This document shows, piece by piece, positions 30,818-38,335 of a DNA stretch of 64,000 nucleotides. The stretch covers positions 186,001 through 250,000 of the forward strand of contig NZ_CP079863.1 of assembly GCF_025263485.1 (NCBI RefSeq). The letters are read 5' to 3'. The notes below the pieces were generated by a model that saw only the letters and a list, made by a program, of their open reading frames with translations, did no database searches and was not told the DNA's origin. This stretch comes from Mycobacterium sp. SMC-2. Its GTDB lineage: Bacteria; Actinomycetota; Actinomycetes; Mycobacteriales; Mycobacteriaceae. The first letter of the stretch is position 1. Each line of letters begins with the position of its first letter. A program made the translations under genes and the position numbers.

Positions 30818-32302
30818 TCAGAGGTCGTTGCCGGCGTAGGACTGGTTGAAGCTTTTGTTGGCCAGCGGGAAGTCCGGGACGATGGTGTCGGCCATCGCGA
30901 CGGGCAGCGCCGGCCAGTTGAACCACGACGGGTCGACGATCTTCGCGCGAGTGATCCGATTCGCTGCGTCGGTTTCGACCCGGTGGACGATGGTGCCCCG
31001 CCAGCCCTCGACGATGCCGATGCCACTGCGCGGTGCGCGCGGTGCCGGCGGGGTTTCCGCGTATTCGGTTGGGCCGCTGTGTGATTCGATCAGGTGGCAG
31101 GCCAGCTCGGTGGACGCGGCGAACTCGTCGCGCCGTACGGTGTAACGGGCCAGCGCGTCGCCCGCGGCGGCCCCTGTCTCGGTGACGGGCAGTGGGGTGG
31201 TCGGGTGTTCGAGTCGGGCGTCCGTGCGGATGCCGCTGGCGCGCGCGACGTAGCCCAGGCACCCGAGTGCGTGAGCGTCTTCTTGGTGCAGGACGGCGGT
31301 CCCGGCGAACCGGTCGTAGACCACGGTGTTGCGCAGCGTCAGTTCGGCGATCTCGGCGACATCGGCGGCGATGCGCCGCAGCGCGGCGACATCCGGCAGC
31401 TCCCGCAGTGCGACCGCACCCGGGCGCACGGCGCCGCGCAACAGCCGATGCCCGGTGACGGCGGCGTTGAGCCGCAGCAGTTGTTCCCGAACGCGTTGCG
31501 CGTGCGCGTGCGCGAGCGCGAACCCGGCGTCGTTGGCCAGCGCCCCCAGGTCGGCGGCGTGGTTGTAGAGCCGTTCGAGCTCGACCAGCAGCGCCCGCAG
31601 CCGGTGCACCCCGTCGGGAAGCTCGATGGCGAGCGCGTCTTCGATGGCGAGGCAGTGGGCGAGCGCATGCGCAACGGAGGTGTCGCCGCTGACCCGTTCC
31701 GCCACGTCGACTGCACCGCCGGCCGGCCGGCCCTCGAACAGCTTCTCCACGCCCCGGTGGACGAACCACAGTCTGGCCTTGAGGCGCAGCACGGTTTCGC
31801 CGGCGACGGAGAAGCGGAAATGCCCGGGTTCGATCAGCCCCGCGTGCACGGGACCCACCGGGATCTCGTACACCCCGGGTCCCTCGACGGTGACGAACGG
31901 AAAGTGGCGGCTGCCATCGAATTCGGGCACCGGCTGCGCCGTGCGGCGCATGGGATACCAATCCTCGGGCCAGTGGGCATGCCGAACCAGGCGGCGCGGT
32001 TTGGGATGGCCGACGCAACGGATCCCGTACAGGTCCGCCATTTCGCGCTCGAACCGGCCGGCCGGAAACGACAGATAGGCCAGCGATCGAACCGCCGGGT
32101 CATCCTTGGGCACTACACATTCGAGCTCGATGCGGCGATCCGGCCGGCCGGCAAGGAACAGGTAGACCACGCGAAAGGCGGCGGGGTCGGGGTCCTCGTG
32201 CGCGGCGACCAGGCCCAGCCGAAACCCTTTGCCCAGCAAGTCTTCTGCCGTCTCGGCCAACCGGTCTTGCGGCAGCCGGTGGAGCTGCCATTCACGCCTC
32301 AC
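30818..32302 (-). CDS. hycE: Hydrogenase-like large subunit of an Ehr/FHL-type complex (Rv0087, HycE-like), NiFe ligands missing
   Basis: 494 residues. The N-terminal part (about 1-130) is a complex I 30-kDa/NuoC-like domain (RFEREMADLYGIRCVGHPKPRRLV); the rest is a NuoD/hydrogenase large-subunit domain. In true [NiFe] hydrogenases the active site is held by RxCGxC and DPCxxC. Here these places read ERVSGDTSVAHALA and, at the C-terminus, DFPLANKSFNQSYAGNDL, so all four Cys ligands are absent. It therefore cannot bind NiFe and belongs with energy-converting hydrogenase-related complexes. It is the last gene of the cluster; its GTG overlaps the previous stop. Confidence 0.88.
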   Translation of the reverse strand: MRREWQLHRLPQDRLAETAEDLLGKGFRLGLVAAHEDPDPAAFRVVYLFLAGRPDRRIELECVVPKDDPAVRSLAYLSFPAGRFEREMADLYGIRCVGHPKPRRLVRHAHWPEDWYPMRRTAQPVPEFDGSRHFPFVTVEGPGVYEIPVGPVHAGLIEPGHFRFSVAGETVLRLKARLWFVHRGVEKLFEGRPAGGAVDVAERVSGDTSVAHALAHCLAIEDALAIELPDGVHRLRALLVELERLYNHAADLGALANDAGFALAHAHAQRVREQLLRLNAAVTGHRLLRGAVRPGAVALRELPDVAALRRIAADVAEIAELTLRNTVVYDRFAGTAVLHQEDAHALGCLGYVARASGIRTDARLEHPTTPLPVTETGAAAGDALARYTVRRDEFAASTELACHLIESHSGPTEYAETPPAPRAPRSGIGIVEGWRGTIVHRVETDAANRITRAKIVDPSWFNWPALPVAMADTIVPDFPLANKSFNQSYAGNDL

Positions 32303-33765
32303 CTCGGTCCCCCGACACCGCTGGCCGCGGTGGTGAACAGGTCGGCGAGCGGGCCGGCGGTGACACCGAGGGCGACCGATGCGGCGATTCCGACGAACAA
32401 CGCCGCCGCCACCGTTCGCGGCACGGCGATTTCCGGTCCGGCCGCCGGGCCGCCCAGCAGGATGCGGCCCGAGTTGCGGGCCAGCGCGGCGAAGGCAATC
32501 GCCACCAACAGCATGCCCGCGGCGAGGGCCCAGGTGAGCCGGGCGTCGGCCAGTGAACGGACGATGGCCAGCTCGCTGGCGAACATCGCGAAGGGCGGCA
32601 GGCCGAGCAGCACGATCACGCCGACGGCGAGCGACACGCCGACAACGCGGGAGCGCCGCAGCACGGCGCCGATGTCGGCGATCGCGGTGGAATTATGCGC
32701 GGCCTGCAGCTGGCCGCTCGCCAGGAAGAGGACCGTCTTGCCGATCCCGTGGGCGAGGACGTGCAGCAGCAGCGCGGCGATGGCCAGCTGGGTTCCGGCC
32801 GCCGCGGCGATCGCGATCAGGCCCATGTTCTCCATGGAGGAGTAGGCGAGCATGCGTTTGAGGTCCGGTGTCACCGTCAGCATCAGGGCCGCGATTAAAA
32901 GCGTTGCCAGCCCGAGCACCAGCAGGCCCGAGCGCATGAAGGCGGGTCCGGTGGCCGTGCCGATGATGGGCTTGAGGCGAATCAACACCGAGAAGGCCAC
33001 CGACAGCAGCACCCCGCTCATCAACGCCGAAACCGGTGCAGGGGCCTGGCTGTGGGCATCGGCCAACCAGGTGTGGAATGGAAACAACCCCGCCTTGGCG
33101 CCGTAGCCGATCAGCAGCAGCCCGCCCGCCAGGCGGGCGATGTCGGCGTCGAGCCCGCCGGCGTGTGCCGCCAGCACGTCGAGGTTCAGGGCCGCGGCGG
33201 CCGGAGCACCGGCGTGCTCGGCGGCGTAGTAGAGCAGCACGGTGCCGAGGAAGGCGATGGCGATTCCGACCGAGCAGATCACGACGTATTTCCAGGTCGC
33301 TTCGAGCGCGCTGCGGGTGCGGCGGTGCCCGACCAGGAAGGCGGTGATCACCGTGGTCGCTTCGACCGCGATCCAGATCACGCCGATGTTGTTGGCGCAC
33401 ACCGCGACAACCATCGCCGCGAGGAACCCGGCCGTCAGGGCCCCGTACACCCGGGCGCCGCGCGTATCGGTGTGGCCGTGCGCGAGTTCGGCGTCGAGGT
33501 AGCCGATGCTGGCCCAGGTGGCCAGTGTGGCAACGATTCCGATGACGATCAGCATGGTGACACTCAGCGCATCCAGCCGCAGCAGCCCACCCAGTGCGAA
33601 CCGGGTGCCGGATCCGACACCGAACGCGAGCGCCGCACCGCATCCGAGCACCGTCACCGCCGAGAGGACGATCAGTGTCGCGGTCGCCCGGCGCCATCCG
33701 GCGATCAGGACGGCCACCGACGCACCCACCGGGGTGAGGATCGCGGCGAGCAGTAACGCGGTCAT
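32299..33765 (-). CDS. hycQ: Proton-pumping membrane subunit, NuoN/HyfF-like (Rv0086, HycQ-like)
   Basis: 488 residues, about 14 hydrophobic helices of the antiporter-like (proton-conducting membrane transporter) family. The conserved block is GYGAKAGLFPFHTWLADAHSQAPAPVSALMSGVLL, with an invariant Lys on a broken helix, followed by PDLKRMLAYSSMENMGLI. It would translocate ions as part of the membrane arm. Its ATG at 33765 overlaps the hycP-like TGA (TGATG) and its stop overlaps the hycE-like GTG. Confidence 0.9.
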   Translation of the reverse strand: MTALLLAAILTPVGASVAVLIAGWRRATATLIVLSAVTVLGCGAALAFGVGSGTRFALGGLLRLDALSVTMLIVIGIVATLATWASIGYLDAELAHGHTDTRGARVYGALTAGFLAAMVVAVCANNIGVIWIAVEATTVITAFLVGHRRTRSALEATWKYVVICSVGIAIAFLGTVLLYYAAEHAGAPAAAALNLDVLAAHAGGLDADIARLAGGLLLIGYGAKAGLFPFHTWLADAHSQAPAPVSALMSGVLLSVAFSVLIRLKPIIGTATGPAFMRSGLLVLGLATLLIAALMLTVTPDLKRMLAYSSMENMGLIAIAAAAGTQLAIAALLLHVLAHGIGKTVLFLASGQLQAAHNSTAIADIGAVLRRSRVVGVSLAVGVIVLLGLPPFAMFASELAIVRSLADARLTWALAAGMLLVAIAFAALARNSGRILLGGPAAGPEIAVPRTVAAALFVGIAASVALGVTAGPLADLFTTAASGVGGPR

Positions 33766-34430
33766 CAGTCGTGCAGCTCCTGTAACGCGTCCAGGTCGGC
33801 ACCGCCGAACGCACGAGACAGCCGGCCCGTCAGTACGCCGATCACGATGATTGCGAACAGCACGTCCAACGAGGCGCCCAATTCGACGATCAGCGGCACC
33901 CCCGCGGTGAGCAAGAAGGCCGTGGCGGCTATTCCGTTGTCCAGCATGAGGAATCCCGCGGCCTGCGACACCGCGTGGCGCCGCGTCACCATGACGAACA
34001 GCGCGATCAGCACCACCGCGGTGGCGGCCGGGACCGCGGAGGTGGTTGTGGCGGCGGGCTGCAGGTTCACCAGGGGTCGAGTGGCGGCGAACGCGGCCAG
34101 CGTCAGCACGGCGGTGACGAGCAGTGACGTGGCGGTGTTCACCAATGGGGTGGCTTCCCGGCGCGATTGCGACTCGGCGCCGAGCGCGCGGGCCAGCAGC
34201 CGCGGCAGCACCGCGACCCGCAGGACCAACACGGCCAAACCGACACCGATGAGCGCCGCGTCACCGTCGTATACCCCGCGCAGCATGGGAATGGCCGCCA
34301 GAGCGACGCCCTGCCATGCCAGCAGCCGGATGATGGCGACCAGGTCGCGGCGCCACACGATCAACACCGCGGCCAGCAGCAGCCCGCCGGCGGCGAGGTC
34401 GACCAGCACGGAAAACGTGTTGTACGTCAT
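33765..34430 (-). CDS. hycP: Small membrane subunit, HyfE-like (Rv0085, HycP-like)
   Basis: 221 residues with about six hydrophobic helices. Segments such as [18 protein letters not shown] and [40 protein letters not shown] match the HyfE/NuoK-like subunit of group 4 hydrogenase complexes. The ATG at 34430 overlaps the hycD-like stop (ATGA), which fixes the start against a longer open frame upstream. Confidence 0.87.
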
Positions 34431-35386
34431 GCCGGCACCACGAAGAAGTTGGCCGCAACCACCGCGAGCAGCGCCAGCAGGAACGATCCCGCCAACAACT
34501 CGGGCACCCGGAACAGCCGCAGCTTTGCGACGAAAACCTCGACGGTGGAAAGCAATCCCGCCAGCAACGCGACCTTGACCGCCACCGCCGCGGCGCCGAC
34601 GACGATCTCGGTCACACCGGGTCGGGCCCCCGCAATGCCCCACGGCGCGAACAGGTTTGCCAGCAGCGCGAGGAGAACGGTCAACCGCATCCCCGCGGCC
34701 CACTCGACCAGGGCGAGGCGGGGGCCGGCGTACTCGAGCACCATCGCCTCGTGAACCATCGTCAGCTCGAGGTGCGTGCTCGGGTTGTCCACCGGAAGTC
34801 GCCCGGTTTCGGCGACGATCACGATCACCAGCGCGACAAACGCCAGCACCGCGGCCAGCGACACCACCTGCCCGGGATGGGTGATCGTATGCGCCACCAG
34901 CGCACCGAGATTGGCCGATCCCACCGGCATCGACAGGGCGAAGACGGCCAGCAAGATGGTGGGTTCGACGAGTGCGGCAATGGTGATCTCGCGGCTAGCT
35001 CCCATACCGCCGAACGAGGTGCCGGTGTCGATGCCGGCCAGGGCCAGCGCGACGGTCCCCACGAACAGCAGGCCCACCACGGCGAACAGGTCGGCGCTGG
35101 CGTCCAGAGGCGATCCCGTGGCGACCAGCGGCGCGATCGCGGCAATAAGCAATGTCGATCCCGCGATGATCGCGGGTGCGGCCGCGAACACCACCGTCGT
35201 CCCGAGCGGGGTGACCTGTTGCTTGCCAAGCTGTTTGACGATGTCGCGCCACGGCTGCAGGATTCCGCCGCCGGCGCGGCCTTCCCAGCGGGCGCGCACC
35301 TGTCGGGTCAGGCCGACCACCAGCGGTGCGCCGACCATGACGCCGCCGACCTGGACCGCGCCCGCAACGTAGGACAGGACGTTCAT
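34427..35386 (-). CDS. hycD: Membrane anchor subunit, NuoH/HyfC-like (Rv0084, HycD-like)
   Basis: 319 residues, eight or so helices. The NuoH/HycD family loop is clear: [32 protein letters not shown] (split here only for length), with the acidic residues that link the soluble module to the membrane arm, and an N-terminal [17 protein letters not shown]. It joins the hydrogenase-like module to the pumping subunits. The ATG at 35386 overlaps the upstream stop (ATGA). Confidence 0.9.
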
Positions 35387-37359
35387 CGGGCCACCACCAG
35401 CACGATCAGCACGCCGAGGGCGCCGTACGCCAAATACAGGTGCACGCTGCCGGTGTGGGCGCGCCGCACCAAATCGGCCGCGGCCGCGATCGCCCGGATC
35501 ACCGGGGTGTAGCAGCGTTCCTCGATCGCATCGACGATTCTGGTGCGGTAGGTGATCTTTTCGGCCAGATAACGCGACTCGGCGGTGTGCGTGACTTCGA
35601 CGTCGGTGTCGGGGCGCAGGACGTCGTCGAACACGCGTTGCAGCGGCTCGGCGAACGACGTGGCGGTGTACTGCATCCGGGCGGTGAGATCGTCGGCGCC
35701 ACAAGCCCATAGCGGCAACGTCGCTGGTTCCGGGCGCCGGCTGCGGCGCCAACGCGCCAGCACGGCGGCGGTCAGTGTCGCTACCGCAACTCCCGCGGCG
35801 ATCGCCCCGGGAGCGATCGACCCCTGCAGGCCCGGCAGGCGCACCACGGCCCCGAAACCGTTGAATTGCACTGCCCGTGCGGCTGGTAACGCACCGACCG
35901 CCTCGCGCAACACTGGTGCGATGACCGCGGGTGCCACGGCCAGCGTCAGGCAGCCGGCCGCCGCGGCCGCCATGCCGGCCAGCATGCTGCCCGGCGCCTC
36001 CCCGGCCTGGGCCGCCTGCTCGGAACGCGGCCGCGCCAGGAATCCGATCCCGAACGCCTTGATCATTGCCGCCACGCCCAGACCGGTGGTGAGCGCGACG
36101 GCGCCCACCGCCAGCGGCGTCGTCAACGCCAAGACGGTGGAATGTTCTCGGGCCGTGTGGATCAGCGACTGCAGCAGCAGCCACTCGCTGACGAATCCGG
36201 CGCCCAGCGGCAGCCCCGACGCCCCGAGCGCGGCCACGGCGAATAGGGTGGTCGTCGCCGGCATCCGGCGGGCCAGACCGCCCAACCGGTCCAGGTCGCG
36301 CAGCCCGGTCGCGGCAAGCACCGAGCCCGCGGCGAGGAAGCCGAGGCTTTTGAATGCCGCGTGCGCGACGAGGTGCAGCATGGCTGCGGCCACGGCGATC
36401 GTCGCCGGGCCGTGCGCGCCGGCGGCGGCGAACAGGGTGGCGGCCCCCAATGCCAGGGTGATCAGCCCGAGGTTCTCGGTTGACGAATACGCAAGTAGCC
36501 GTTTGAGATCCGTGGCGACCGAGGCCTGCACCACGCCGTAGAGTGCCGACACCGCGCCTACGGCCATCAGGGTCAGCCCCCACCAGCGCGGCCCCGGACC
36601 GAGCAGCTGCAGATCGACGCGGCAAATGCCGTAGACCCCAAGGTTGATCATTGCCGCGCTCATCAGCGCCGACACGGGGCTCGGCGCCTCCGGGTGGGCG
36701 CGCGGCAGCCACGCATGTAGCGGTACCAGCCCGGCCTTGGAGCCAAACCCCGCCAGCGTCAACAGGAACACGGCGGCGCACGCGCCTTGCGGTATCCCGT
36801 GCAGGTCGGCGAACCGGTCCGCGCCGCCCGCGGCCGACAACACCATCAGGCCGACCAGTATCGCGACAAACCCCAACTGGGTCATCACCGCATACACCAA
36901 CGCGGCGGAGCGAACCTTTGGGTGGGTGTGGTGGGTCAGCACCAACACCAACGACGCGACCGCCATCAGCTCCCACGCCAACAGGAAGGTGGTGACCGAC
37001 GCCGCCGCGGGCACCAACAGCATCGCCGCGACGAACGTCGGCAGGACGGCCAGGGTGACGGGTCCGAGCTTCTCACGCCGGGCATAGCCGATCGTGTACA
37101 GCCCGACCGCGATCGCGACCGCCCCCGTGAGCGCCATGAAGAATCCGCCCAACGGATCGACGCCCAGCTGGACGCCCGCCAGGGGAAGCAACCATCCGAT
37201 GTGGACCGCGCGCACCGAACCGAACATTCCCAGTGCGCCCGCCCATATCCCACCGGCGCCCAGCAGCGAGGTCAGCGCGCCCGCGCAGATGGAGCCGGAG
37301 TCGTTGCGGTGCACGAGGTTTGGCTCCGGCAGGATTCTGGTAGCCAGCCCCGCGGTCAC
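35383..37359 (-). CDS. Proton-pumping membrane subunit, NuoL/HyfB-like (Rv0083)
   Basis: 658 residues, about 16 helices, antiporter-like subunit. Conserved blocks are LAWELMAVASLVLVL, GFGSKAGLVPLHAWLPRAHPE with PSPVSALMSAAMINLGVYG, and TDLKRLLAYSSTENLGLI. A soluble tail (residues about 560-620) carries PLWACGADDLTARMQYTATSFAEPL, usual for HyfB/HycC proteins. The start is the GTG at 37359, which overlaps the TGA of the small-subunit gene (GTGA). Confidence 0.9.
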   Translation of the reverse strand: MTAGLATRILPEPNLVHRNDSGSICAGALTSLLGAGGIWAGALGMFGSVRAVHIGWLLPLAGVQLGVDPLGGFFMALTGAVAIAVGLYTIGYARREKLGPVTLAVLPTFVAAMLLVPAAASVTTFLLAWELMAVASLVLVLTHHTHPKVRSAALVYAVMTQLGFVAILVGLMVLSAAGGADRFADLHGIPQGACAAVFLLTLAGFGSKAGLVPLHAWLPRAHPEAPSPVSALMSAAMINLGVYGICRVDLQLLGPGPRWWGLTLMAVGAVSALYGVVQASVATDLKRLLAYSSTENLGLITLALGAATLFAAAGAHGPATIAVAAAMLHLVAHAAFKSLGFLAAGSVLAATGLRDLDRLGGLARRMPATTTLFAVAALGASGLPLGAGFVSEWLLLQSLIHTAREHSTVLALTTPLAVGAVALTTGLGVAAMIKAFGIGFLARPRSEQAAQAGEAPGSMLAGMAAAAAGCLTLAVAPAVIAPVLREAVGALPAARAVQFNGFGAVVRLPGLQGSIAPGAIAAGVAVATLTAAVLARWRRSRRPEPATLPLWACGADDLTARMQYTATSFAEPLQRVFDDVLRPDTDVEVTHTAESRYLAEKITYRTRIVDAIEERCYTPVIRAIAAAADLVRRAHTGSVHLYLAYGALGVLIVLVVAR

Positions 37360-37835
37360 TTGCCGGTCACCGACCGCAAAGCCGCGACGATCTGGCTCGG
37401 GGTCGGCGGGCATCCCGGGATCTCCAGATCTACCCCCACCGTCTCGCCGACCGCGCCGACCACACCGTAGGCGTCGCCGAACACCCCTCGGTCAATGGCG
37501 CAGTCCCCACACGCGATCACCCGGCGTGGCCGCGGTGTCGCCTCGATGGTCGCGCGCAAGGGGCCGGCCATGTTGTGCGTGACCACACCGGTGACCAGGA
37601 GTGCGTCCGCATGCCGTGGGGAGGCCACCAGGCGGGCCCCGAACCGTTCGGCGTCATAGACCGGCCCGAACGCGCCCGCAATCTCGACCTCACAGCCGTT
37701 GCAGGAACCCGCGTCGACATGCCGAATCTGAAGCGAGCCCCGCACTCCCGCAAGCGGTTTCATCGCCGGCGCCGGTAACGGCGCCGCAGGCTCGGTGATC
37801 CGCCCGACCCCGAAAACTTTGCCAATCCAGCCCAC
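37356..37835 (-). CDS. NuoB/HyfI-like iron-sulfur subunit (Rv0082)
   Basis: 159 residues, NADH-ubiquinone oxidoreductase 20-kDa/hydrogenase small-subunit family. Cluster cysteines are visible in DAGSCNGCEVEI, VIACGDCAIDRG and EIPGCPPTPSQIV, so an N2-type [4Fe-4S] cluster can form even though the partner large subunit lacks NiFe ligands. It begins with GTG at 37835, 5 bp after the regulator gene, and overlaps the next gene by 4 bp. Confidence 0.9.
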   Translation of the reverse strand: MGWIGKVFGVGRITEPAAPLPAPAMKPLAGVRGSLQIRHVDAGSCNGCEVEIAGAFGPVYDAERFGARLVASPRHADALLVTGVVTHNMAGPLRATIEATPRPRRVIACGDCAIDRGVFGDAYGVVGAVGETVGVDLEIPGCPPTPSQIVAALRSVTGK

Positions 37836-37840
37836 GGGCG

Positions 37841-38176
37841 TTACTCCGCGCCGCCGGCACGCAGGTCCTCCAAGACCGCCACGCGGTCCCTGAGCACCCC
37901 GGTAAGCACCTTGCGCGCCACCATCAGCAGCTCGGCGATATCCGGCGAGGCGATCGAGTAGATCACCGTGTTGCCGTCCCTGATCGCCTCAACTACGCCG
38001 GCCCGGCGCAGGACGCCGAGTTGCTGTGAGAGATTCGATGATTCGAGCCCGACCTCCGGCAACAGCTCGGCGACCGACTTGTCCCCCGTCGCCAGGAGCT
38101 CGAGAACCCTGACGCGCGCCGGATGGCCCAACGTCTTGAAGAACTCGGCCTTGAGCTTGTACAGCGGCTCGGACAC
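37841..38176 (-). CDS. ArsR-family regulator of the cluster (Rv0081-like)
   Basis: 111 residues, winged helix. The recognition region is VGLESSNLSQQLGVLRRAGVV and the wing is IRDGNTVIYSIAS. It has no cysteine at all, so it cannot be a classical thiol-based metal sensor. In M. tuberculosis Rv0081 is a hub regulator that controls itself and the downstream hydrogenase-like genes and is itself in the DosR regulon. The start GTG at 38176 has AGGAG 8 nt upstream. It is first in the seven-gene operon. Confidence 0.92.
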   Translation of the reverse strand: MSEPLYKLKAEFFKTLGHPARVRVLELLATGDKSVAELLPEVGLESSNLSQQLGVLRRAGVVEAIRDGNTVIYSIASPDIAELLMVARKVLTGVLRDRVAVLEDLRAGGAE

Positions 38177-38200
38177 GACGGATCTCCTGAAGACTCTTAG

Positions 38201-38219
38201 ATTCGAACAATTGAAGAAT
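38201..38219. promoter_or_regulatory. Candidate operator of the Rv0081-like regulator
   Basis: ATTCGAACAATTGAAGAAT, 25 bp upstream of the GTG, has inverted ATTC/GAAT ends around an AT-rich core containing CAATTG, in an otherwise GC-rich context. ArsR proteins often bind such sites to repress themselves. The symmetry is imperfect, and no DosR box was seen upstream. Confidence 0.35.
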
Positions 38220-38335
38220 TTATCAGATGGTGATGATCCCGGGCGACGCCCAGAAGCCCGCCTGGCCGGGCATGCAGGCCAATGATCTGCGGTTATGCAG
38301 CGGAGCGGGCGAGGTTATGACGTCGAACACATCGG

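Follow-up and report, generated by a model that had tools for sequence, protein, structure and literature searches.

An Ehr-type operon of Mycobacterium sp. SMC-2: a conserved pocket in place of the NiFe site, and relatives without the full set of cluster ligands

What can a complex built like a hydrogenase do once the residues that hold its nickel and iron are gone? The question is raised by a seven-gene operon at positions 30818-38176, minus strand, of a 64,000-nucleotide stretch of Mycobacterium sp. SMC-2 (GCF_025263485.1, contig NZ_CP079863.1, positions 186,001 to 250,000), here called the window. Judged by its gene set and residues, the operon is an energy-converting hydrogenase-related (Ehr) complex, that is, a relative of the group 4 [NiFe]-hydrogenases without the NiFe-coordinating residues (PMC6349859, PMC10284858, PMC7304191). 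Coupling of a cytoplasmic reaction to ion transport by Ehr is suspected in the literature. In our alignments, a fixed signature marks the former NiFe pocket in homologues as distant as 35% identity, which we report as new, and at least two Ehr branches have neither NiFe ligands nor the full N2-type ligand set for the last iron-sulfur cluster.

Subunit composition of the operon

The gene set proposed by the initial annotation, namely a regulator, an FeS small subunit, four membrane subunits of which two are antiporter-like, and a large subunit, was confirmed throughout by domain and family matches. The seven co-directional genes are as follows.

37841-38176, minus strand: ArsR-family regulator, Rv0081-like, 111 aa, no cysteine (Pfam HTH_5; best PDB match 6jmi, Rv0081, E=1.3e-49)
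37356-37835, minus strand: small subunit, 159 aa, with N2-like [4Fe-4S] ligand positions C45, C48, C112 and C142, and C109 (Pfam Oxidored_q6; HycG 7z0s_G 116 bits, MbhJ 109 bits)
35383-37359, minus strand: HyfB-like antiporter subunit, GTG start, 658 aa, with a longer ATG reading from 37413 (Proton_antipo_M; NF005086, hydrogenase 4 subunit B, 555 bits, under the cut-off of 667)
34427-35386, minus strand: HycD/NuoH-like membrane subunit, 319 aa (NADHdh)
33765-34430, minus strand: HyfE-like membrane subunit, 221 aa (NF008556, hydrogenase 4 membrane subunit, 72 bits, under the cut-off of 136)
32299-33765, minus strand: HyfF-like antiporter subunit, 488 aa (Proton_antipo_M; NF005044, 322 bits, under the cut-off of 610)
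30818-32302, minus strand: large subunit, NuoC+NuoD/HycE-like fusion (C+D), 494 aa, NiFe ligands replaced, without maturation extension (Complex1_49kDa, Complex1_30kDa, NiFeSe_Hases; HycE 7z0s_E 172.8 bits)

Antiporter subunits of the Mrp/complex I type are thus encoded within the operon, as in other Ehr complexes. Neighbouring genes overlap by 1-4 nt; the earlier description of overlapping genes holds for these junctions and fails at that between ArsR and the small subunit, where the starts as annotated here leave a 5-nt gap. The GC content of the operon is 69.8% (window, 68.7%), and the convergent mutY gene ends 10 bp from the large-subunit stop.

The former NiFe pocket of the large subunit

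The large subunit matched HycE of the Escherichia coli formate hydrogenlyase (FHL) in the PDB with E=1e-49. RVCGIC of HycE is aligned to RVSGDT, and DPCYSCTDR to NQSYAGNDL, at the end of which the gene stops, whereas HycE continues for another 32 residues. This C-terminal extension of HycE is cut off on maturation. Homologues were compared in alignments of 80 rows, comprising the window and 79 Ehr loci (from the best 80 of 158 matches). The change of CGxC to SGDT and the loss of DPCxxC, both noted initially, were borne out by the HycE alignment and by 80 of 80 rows: S205, T208, S488 and G491 replace the four cysteines, position 208 being threonine in 74 rows and serine in the other six. The two NiFe-binding CxxC motifs that define a group 4 hydrogenase are therefore lacking.

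The replaced site is strongly conserved. E158, H161, R163, S205, G206, D207, H212, E432, W434, R435 and D457 were identical in all 80 rows, as was the C-terminus S488-Y489-A490-G491-N492-D493-L494-stop, and 207 of the 494 positions were near-invariant. A wider, chosen set of 45 rows, reaching down to 35% identity, keeps without exception H153, E158, H161, R163, SGD, E432 and R435, together with N482-K483-S484-F485-N486, S488, Y489, G491 and D493. Named sources of the homologues include Thermoleophilia, Syntrophales, Patescibacteria and Wildermuthbacteria. Since the pocket is invariant over such a distance, it does not appear to be a relic.

Mapping on MbhL of the Pyrococcus Mbh hydrogenase placed Glu21 at E158, Lys24 at H161, His75 at H212, Arg320 at R435 and Asp379 at D493 (from alignments, the C-terminal part through the numbering of PMC11228991). 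The four cysteines of MbhL fall on the four replaced positions, and Asp372 is likewise replaced. According to simulations of Mbh, Glu21 and His75, together with the network that Glu21 forms with Lys24 and Asp379, control proton passage and are coupled to the loops, and the ion pair of Glu21 with Lys24 and Asp379 passes active-site events to the membrane-arm loops (PMC11228991). With the NiFe ligands replaced and these gating and coupling residues retained, catalysis would have been removed and the coupling part kept. Modelling, which had been proposed as a way to see what lines the pocket, recovered the fold: a lone-chain model of the large subunit, with a predicted local distance difference test score (pLDDT) of 83 and a predicted template-modelling score (pTM) of 0.87, had 7z0s_E as its best fold match (TMq 0.86).

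As a separate observation, among 248 mycobacterial genomes sampled (71 Ehr-bearing, 177 Ehr-free), one Ehr-bearing genome has a full-length large-subunit match with an internal stop, a single TAA (G430:C1:5431001-5432464).

Small subunit and electron path

In the small subunit, C45, C48, C112 and C142 align with HycG C48, C51, C115 and C145. These four cluster-ligand positions, whose cysteines had been recognised from the start, are kept in 77 of 77 small-subunit rows of the window's clade, and they form the N2-type ligand set of complex I in its hydrogenase-type CxxC form. C109, three residues before the third ligand, is a further invariant cysteine (77/77 rows) that is missing from HycG and from locus L118.

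A feature overlooked in the initial annotation concerns the surroundings of the operon, where no ferredoxin-type (HycB/HycF) motif is present. Scanning of open reading frames (ORFs) with the pattern C..C..C...C[PGAS] gave no hit in 96 of 99 Ehr loci, some of them cut by contig ends, nor anywhere in the window, and the E. coli locus, as a positive control, yielded HycB and HycF. The window hence has no Fe-S wire subunits of the HycB/HycF type, and the absence of the motif near Ehr is, as far as this pattern scan reaches, a new observation. It implies that the donor must come from elsewhere, presumably docking on the small subunit. The three motif-positive loci are the SGDE subgroup (3/3 loci), with the motif fused onto the small-subunit reading, a hint that in the SGDE branch electrons may enter at the small subunit.

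Loss of centres in related clades

Two large-subunit trees (49 rows; 36 rows under a mixture model) placed the window clade next to the SGDS clade, with support of 100/94 and 99/95, and SGDE next after these two (96/80 and 90/78). A separate CYAC clade (100/100) keeps CxxC-like motifs, complete in most rows, but has no C-terminal extension. HypD was found in 2 of 9 CYAC-clade genomes, many of them perhaps incomplete, versus 4 of 4 FHL genomes, and in 11 of 15 genomes of the SGD, SGDE and SGDS groups, where other hydrogenases may use it.

The small subunits of the SGDS clade have T or S at C45, D at C112 and D (A once) at C142 in 120 of 120 cases, counted among the best matches of an SGDS query and thus in a sample biased to this clade. 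T, D and D also stand at these positions in each of the five SGDS operons whose small subunit could be read (L122, L123, L159, L160, L161). A second Ehr type occurs in mycobacteria themselves, with matches at 131-204 bits in 7 of the 248 genomes. At the five loci read (L167-L171, in G614, G458, G422, G445 and G510), the order is HycD-HyfE-HyfF-large subunit-small subunit-HyfB, the large subunit ends ASFGL[CS]YAGVAM, and all four small-subunit ligand positions carry D, N, S or A (5/5 loci). This type conforms to the motifs of the L116/L137 type, another tree position without ligands. The loss of cluster ligands in the sister clade and in the second mycobacterial type appears to be new: we found no mention of small-subunit ligand loss in the parts of the literature available to us, although the founding Ehr papers may contain one.

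Membrane arm

The pumping arm was described initially as kept, and this agrees with the antiporter-, HycD- and HyfE-like subunits present and with their channel residues. Near-invariant in the window's clade are HyfB E148, K226, K304, K355 and E410 (numbered on the 676-aa, longer ATG reading) and HyfF E135, K224, K303, K343 and E398, for which we assume the ion-channel role of their complex I counterparts. The SGDS clade retains the named channel residues; in the second mycobacterial type, HyfF retains all 12 residues checked, and losses affect K304 and a few further residues in HyfB and several in HycD.

Regulation

Scored against a 20-mer that we take to be the DosR consensus, the window contains no match of 16/20 or better, and the best within 400 bp upstream of the operon reaches 12/20. 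The reported lack of a DosR box thus stands, but it is not peculiar to this locus, since none of 76 loci has a DosR-like box upstream at 15/20 or better, a level reached by 9 of 380 shuffles. Control by DosR was rejected for the 76 loci scanned. A different element lies upstream of the regulator gene.

38208-38225, minus strand: 18-bp cis element TGATAAATTCTTCAATTG, exact in the window, with its 5' end 49 bp before the start of ArsR

With up to three mismatches allowed, 55 of 71 loci have it in the 150 bp before the ArsR start, most commonly at 57 bp. No other match was found in the 79 loci and none in 789,440 shuffled bases; among eight whole genomes, six contain it, with one match each except for two in G527. 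Rv0081 is reported to recognise an inverted repeat in its own promoter and to act as a repressor (PMC6177252). The element is likely the counterpart of this repeat, as a predicted site, and probably forms an operon-specific part of the operator or promoter.

Proposed mechanism and alternative explanations

Our tentative preference is an ion pump with a single cluster and proton gating that takes its electrons from a soluble donor, because it best fits the cluster ligands, the fused-ferredoxin relatives and the coupling residues. Ehr would descend from an ion pump of the group 4 [NiFe]-hydrogenase type and have given up the handling of H2. A ferredoxin-like, soluble donor of single electrons would dock on the small subunit at a HycF-type site and reduce a single putative N2-like [4Fe-4S] cluster; the change in charge would move protons in the metal-free pocket of the large subunit, where E158, H161 and D493 are retained, and the beta1-beta2 loop would move in turn, driving H+ (or Na+) through HycD, HyfE, HyfF and HyfB. 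In the direction that we infer, the electron would be passed on to a carrier in the membrane, for instance menaquinone, or to a small pocket ligand. The operon's own ArsR, acting at the conserved element upstream, would be the main control of expression.

Several observations weigh against such a pump. The SGDS clade has the same large-subunit pocket as the window and has lost three of four cluster ligands, so that the conserved role of the pocket would be independent of electrons from that cluster. Among the genes of the loci read, none was recognised as coding for a donor or acceptor, in line with the initial statement that neither could be named from the locus. In the lone-chain model, the pocket segments 132-182 and 488-494 have pLDDT values below 50, too low for their geometry to be read from it. 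The 49-kDa quinone-site residues of complex I are not preserved in the alignment, where the Tyr corresponds to Gly206 and the His to Ile157. Finally, HycC of the working E. coli FHL has L and Q at the K226 and K304 positions, and these lysines are therefore no mark of the whole superfamily.

The strongest of these points, a sister clade that has this pocket without the cluster, is the reason why we treat a non-redox machine as a serious, if less probable, rival. The Ehr core would then exchange or pump ions, driven by ligand binding, an ion gradient or a non-redox reaction in the pocket, and the cluster would serve in mycobacteria as a structural or an oxygen- or redox-sensing latch. Proton-antiporter relatives support CO2/bicarbonate interconversion elsewhere, an example of such a reaction. 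Cluster ligands were lost at two tree positions (SGDS, and the L116/L137 type including the second mycobacterial type), both ligand-less types keep most channel residues, and some neighbours concern C1 or C4 acids: 9 of 79 loci have a GTP-dependent phosphoenolpyruvate carboxykinase (GTP-PEPCK), 3 Nocardia loci have SulP transporters and 2 loci have a carbonic-anhydrase-like ORF, named by eye. However, all four ligands persist throughout the window's own clade, the SGDE branch carries its fused ferredoxin-type motif, PEPCK and SulP neighbours are absent from the mutY-linked loci, and a metal or hydration site is only putative. In a bolder version, which we consider doubtful, Ehr has left redox chemistry, and the window complex is the cluster-bearing sibling of a large clade that, like the second type within its own genus, lacks both NiFe and an N2-type centre while keeping the pump. 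The pocket (E158/H161/D207/R435/D493) would then hold or transform a ligand outside redox chemistry, perhaps bicarbonate/CO2, and the mycobacterial cluster would act as a latch and not as a wire. The earlier label of an energy-conserving system of undefined chemistry must also allow for a complete lack of redox chemistry, given the sister clade and the second type without ligands.

The remaining explanations resemble known enzymes or posit none. An oxidoreductase of the complex I kind, passing electrons from a donor to menaquinone in an ordinary quinone chamber, is distinctly unlikely: fold and sequence are close to NuoCD/NuoB, and E158, one residue from I157, is equated through MbhL Glu21 with the quinone-site His on structural grounds (PMC11228991), but the Tyr site is glycine and the pocket persists in relatives without the cluster. 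A non-functional remnant in decay would accommodate the lost metal site and the interrupted gene in one of 71 Ehr-bearing genomes (G430), yet it is very improbable in view of the near-invariant positions of the large subunit and of the presence, in several genera, of operons that carry a conserved element of their own. Least probable of all is an FHL, as the database name "formate hydrogenase" and the resemblance of the operon to Hyf/FHL would have it; the NiFe ligands, the C-terminal extension and HycB/HycF-type motifs are all lacking, inspection by eye of the neighbours at 14 loci recognised no formate dehydrogenase, and HypD is missing from 4 of the 15 genomes of the SGD, SGDE and SGDS groups. 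Use of H2 was rejected on the NiFe ligands, the missing extension and the missing wire subunits, and the original prediction of no hydrogen chemistry is upheld.

Genomic context

The mutY gene lies beside Ehr in the window and in 29 of 79 loci, and in none of the other 50 (mutY search, 83-91% identity). It directly follows the large subunit in 28 of the 29 and, in L012, a second large-subunit copy. The mutY-linked loci and the window occupy one side of one branch (Shimodaira-Hasegawa-like approximate likelihood ratio test, SH-aLRT, 98), and a place next to mutY is a clade trait. The operon had been called relocated, which is correct in that it lies next to mutY and elsewhere than the described block, and incorrect if taken as strain-specific. 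The comparison of locus position across mycobacteria that had been suggested was carried out and found the other loci in varied places, beside a serB2-like gene (cluster 39), a PHP-domain-like gene, Mycolicibacter-specific genes or PEPCK; neighbours at other loci were mostly named by eye. The hyc locus was reported to have changed place repeatedly in Actinobacteria, with an M. avium island among the transfers, and the same study read copies of pckA in Nocardioides as insertion traces (PMC3087520, 2009).

GTP-PEPCK accompanied by a second ArsR was found in Mycobacteriaceae, Nocardia and a metagenome-assembled genome (L028, L030, L031, L034, L041, L062, L068, L074, L078). In a tree, the linked enzyme is a paralogue apart from the housekeeping one (100/100), with five additional Nocardia copies, of which two are identical to linked copies, among the rows labelled housekeeping; the tree argues for a separate isoform rather than insertion traces in the loci tested. 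At least two PEPCK matches were present in 9 of 9 linked genomes versus one in 6 of 6 unlinked genomes; N. aurantiaca has two, and its Ehr locus ends at a contig edge. Five PEPCK copies reach 81% identity or more, and each of them is located no more than 2 kb from Ehr; in one, a TGA interrupts the matched stretch. The link hints at C4/CO2 metabolism. As a general partner of Ehr, PEPCK is weakened by the mycobacterial genome counts, where a second copy occurs in 6 of 71 Ehr-bearing versus 4 of 177 Ehr-free genomes, a statistically weak link.

Other observations concern individual loci. A family of about 295 aa (cluster 43) recurs in several PEPCK-linked loci and in L054 and has no Pfam match; its reading as malic enzyme-like was a guess and was set aside. 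CrcB-like (fluoride channel) and DUF190-type ORFs lie near Ehr in L068, L136, L162 and L164, called by eye apart from DUF190 in L068, which Pfam confirmed. In L012 (G527, M. interjectum), the two large-subunit copies score equally and are about 2.5 kb apart, either a tandem duplication or an assembly artefact. HyfF, HyfE and HycD of L016 (M. palustre) are apparently inverted beyond mutY, splitting the operon through a local inversion or a misassembly.

Comparison with known systems

Ehr complexes are widespread relatives of complex I, and in the best-known mycobacterial host Ehr belongs to a hypoxia-linked operon. Rv0081-Rv0087 of the M. tuberculosis complex has already been printed as Ehr (PMC6728331). 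By description it is the same seven-gene block, and the window regulator matches the Rv0081 structure 6jmi, Rv0081 being the one protein of the block compared directly; the window operon differs in its place on the chromosome and in having no DosR-like box.

The E. coli FHL (HycC-HycD-HycE-HycG, 7z0s) provides the best PDB match of both the large and the small subunit and of the predicted fold, but it has CGIC, DPCYSC, the 32-residue extension and HycB/HycF, all of which the window complex lacks. The E. coli-type hydrogenase 4 arm (HyfB, HyfE, HyfF) shares two antiporter-like subunits and HyfE with the window, where, however, the best NCBIfam scores stay under the equivalog cut-offs and the antiporter-like subunits number only two. 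Pyrococcus Mbh (6cfw) has equivalents of its Glu21, His75, Arg320 and Asp379 kept in the window and a small subunit matching at 109 bits, but its four Cys ligands correspond to S205, T208, S488 and G491. With respiratory complex I the window shares the homologous core (NuoB/NuoC/NuoD/NuoH), while it differs in lacking a ferredoxin-type motif and the quinone-site Tyr and in having no NADH module among the seven genes. Seen beside these systems, the series of losses, from NiFe through the wire subunits to the ligands of the last cluster, with channel residues mostly kept, offers natural mutants for asking what drives a complex I-type pump.

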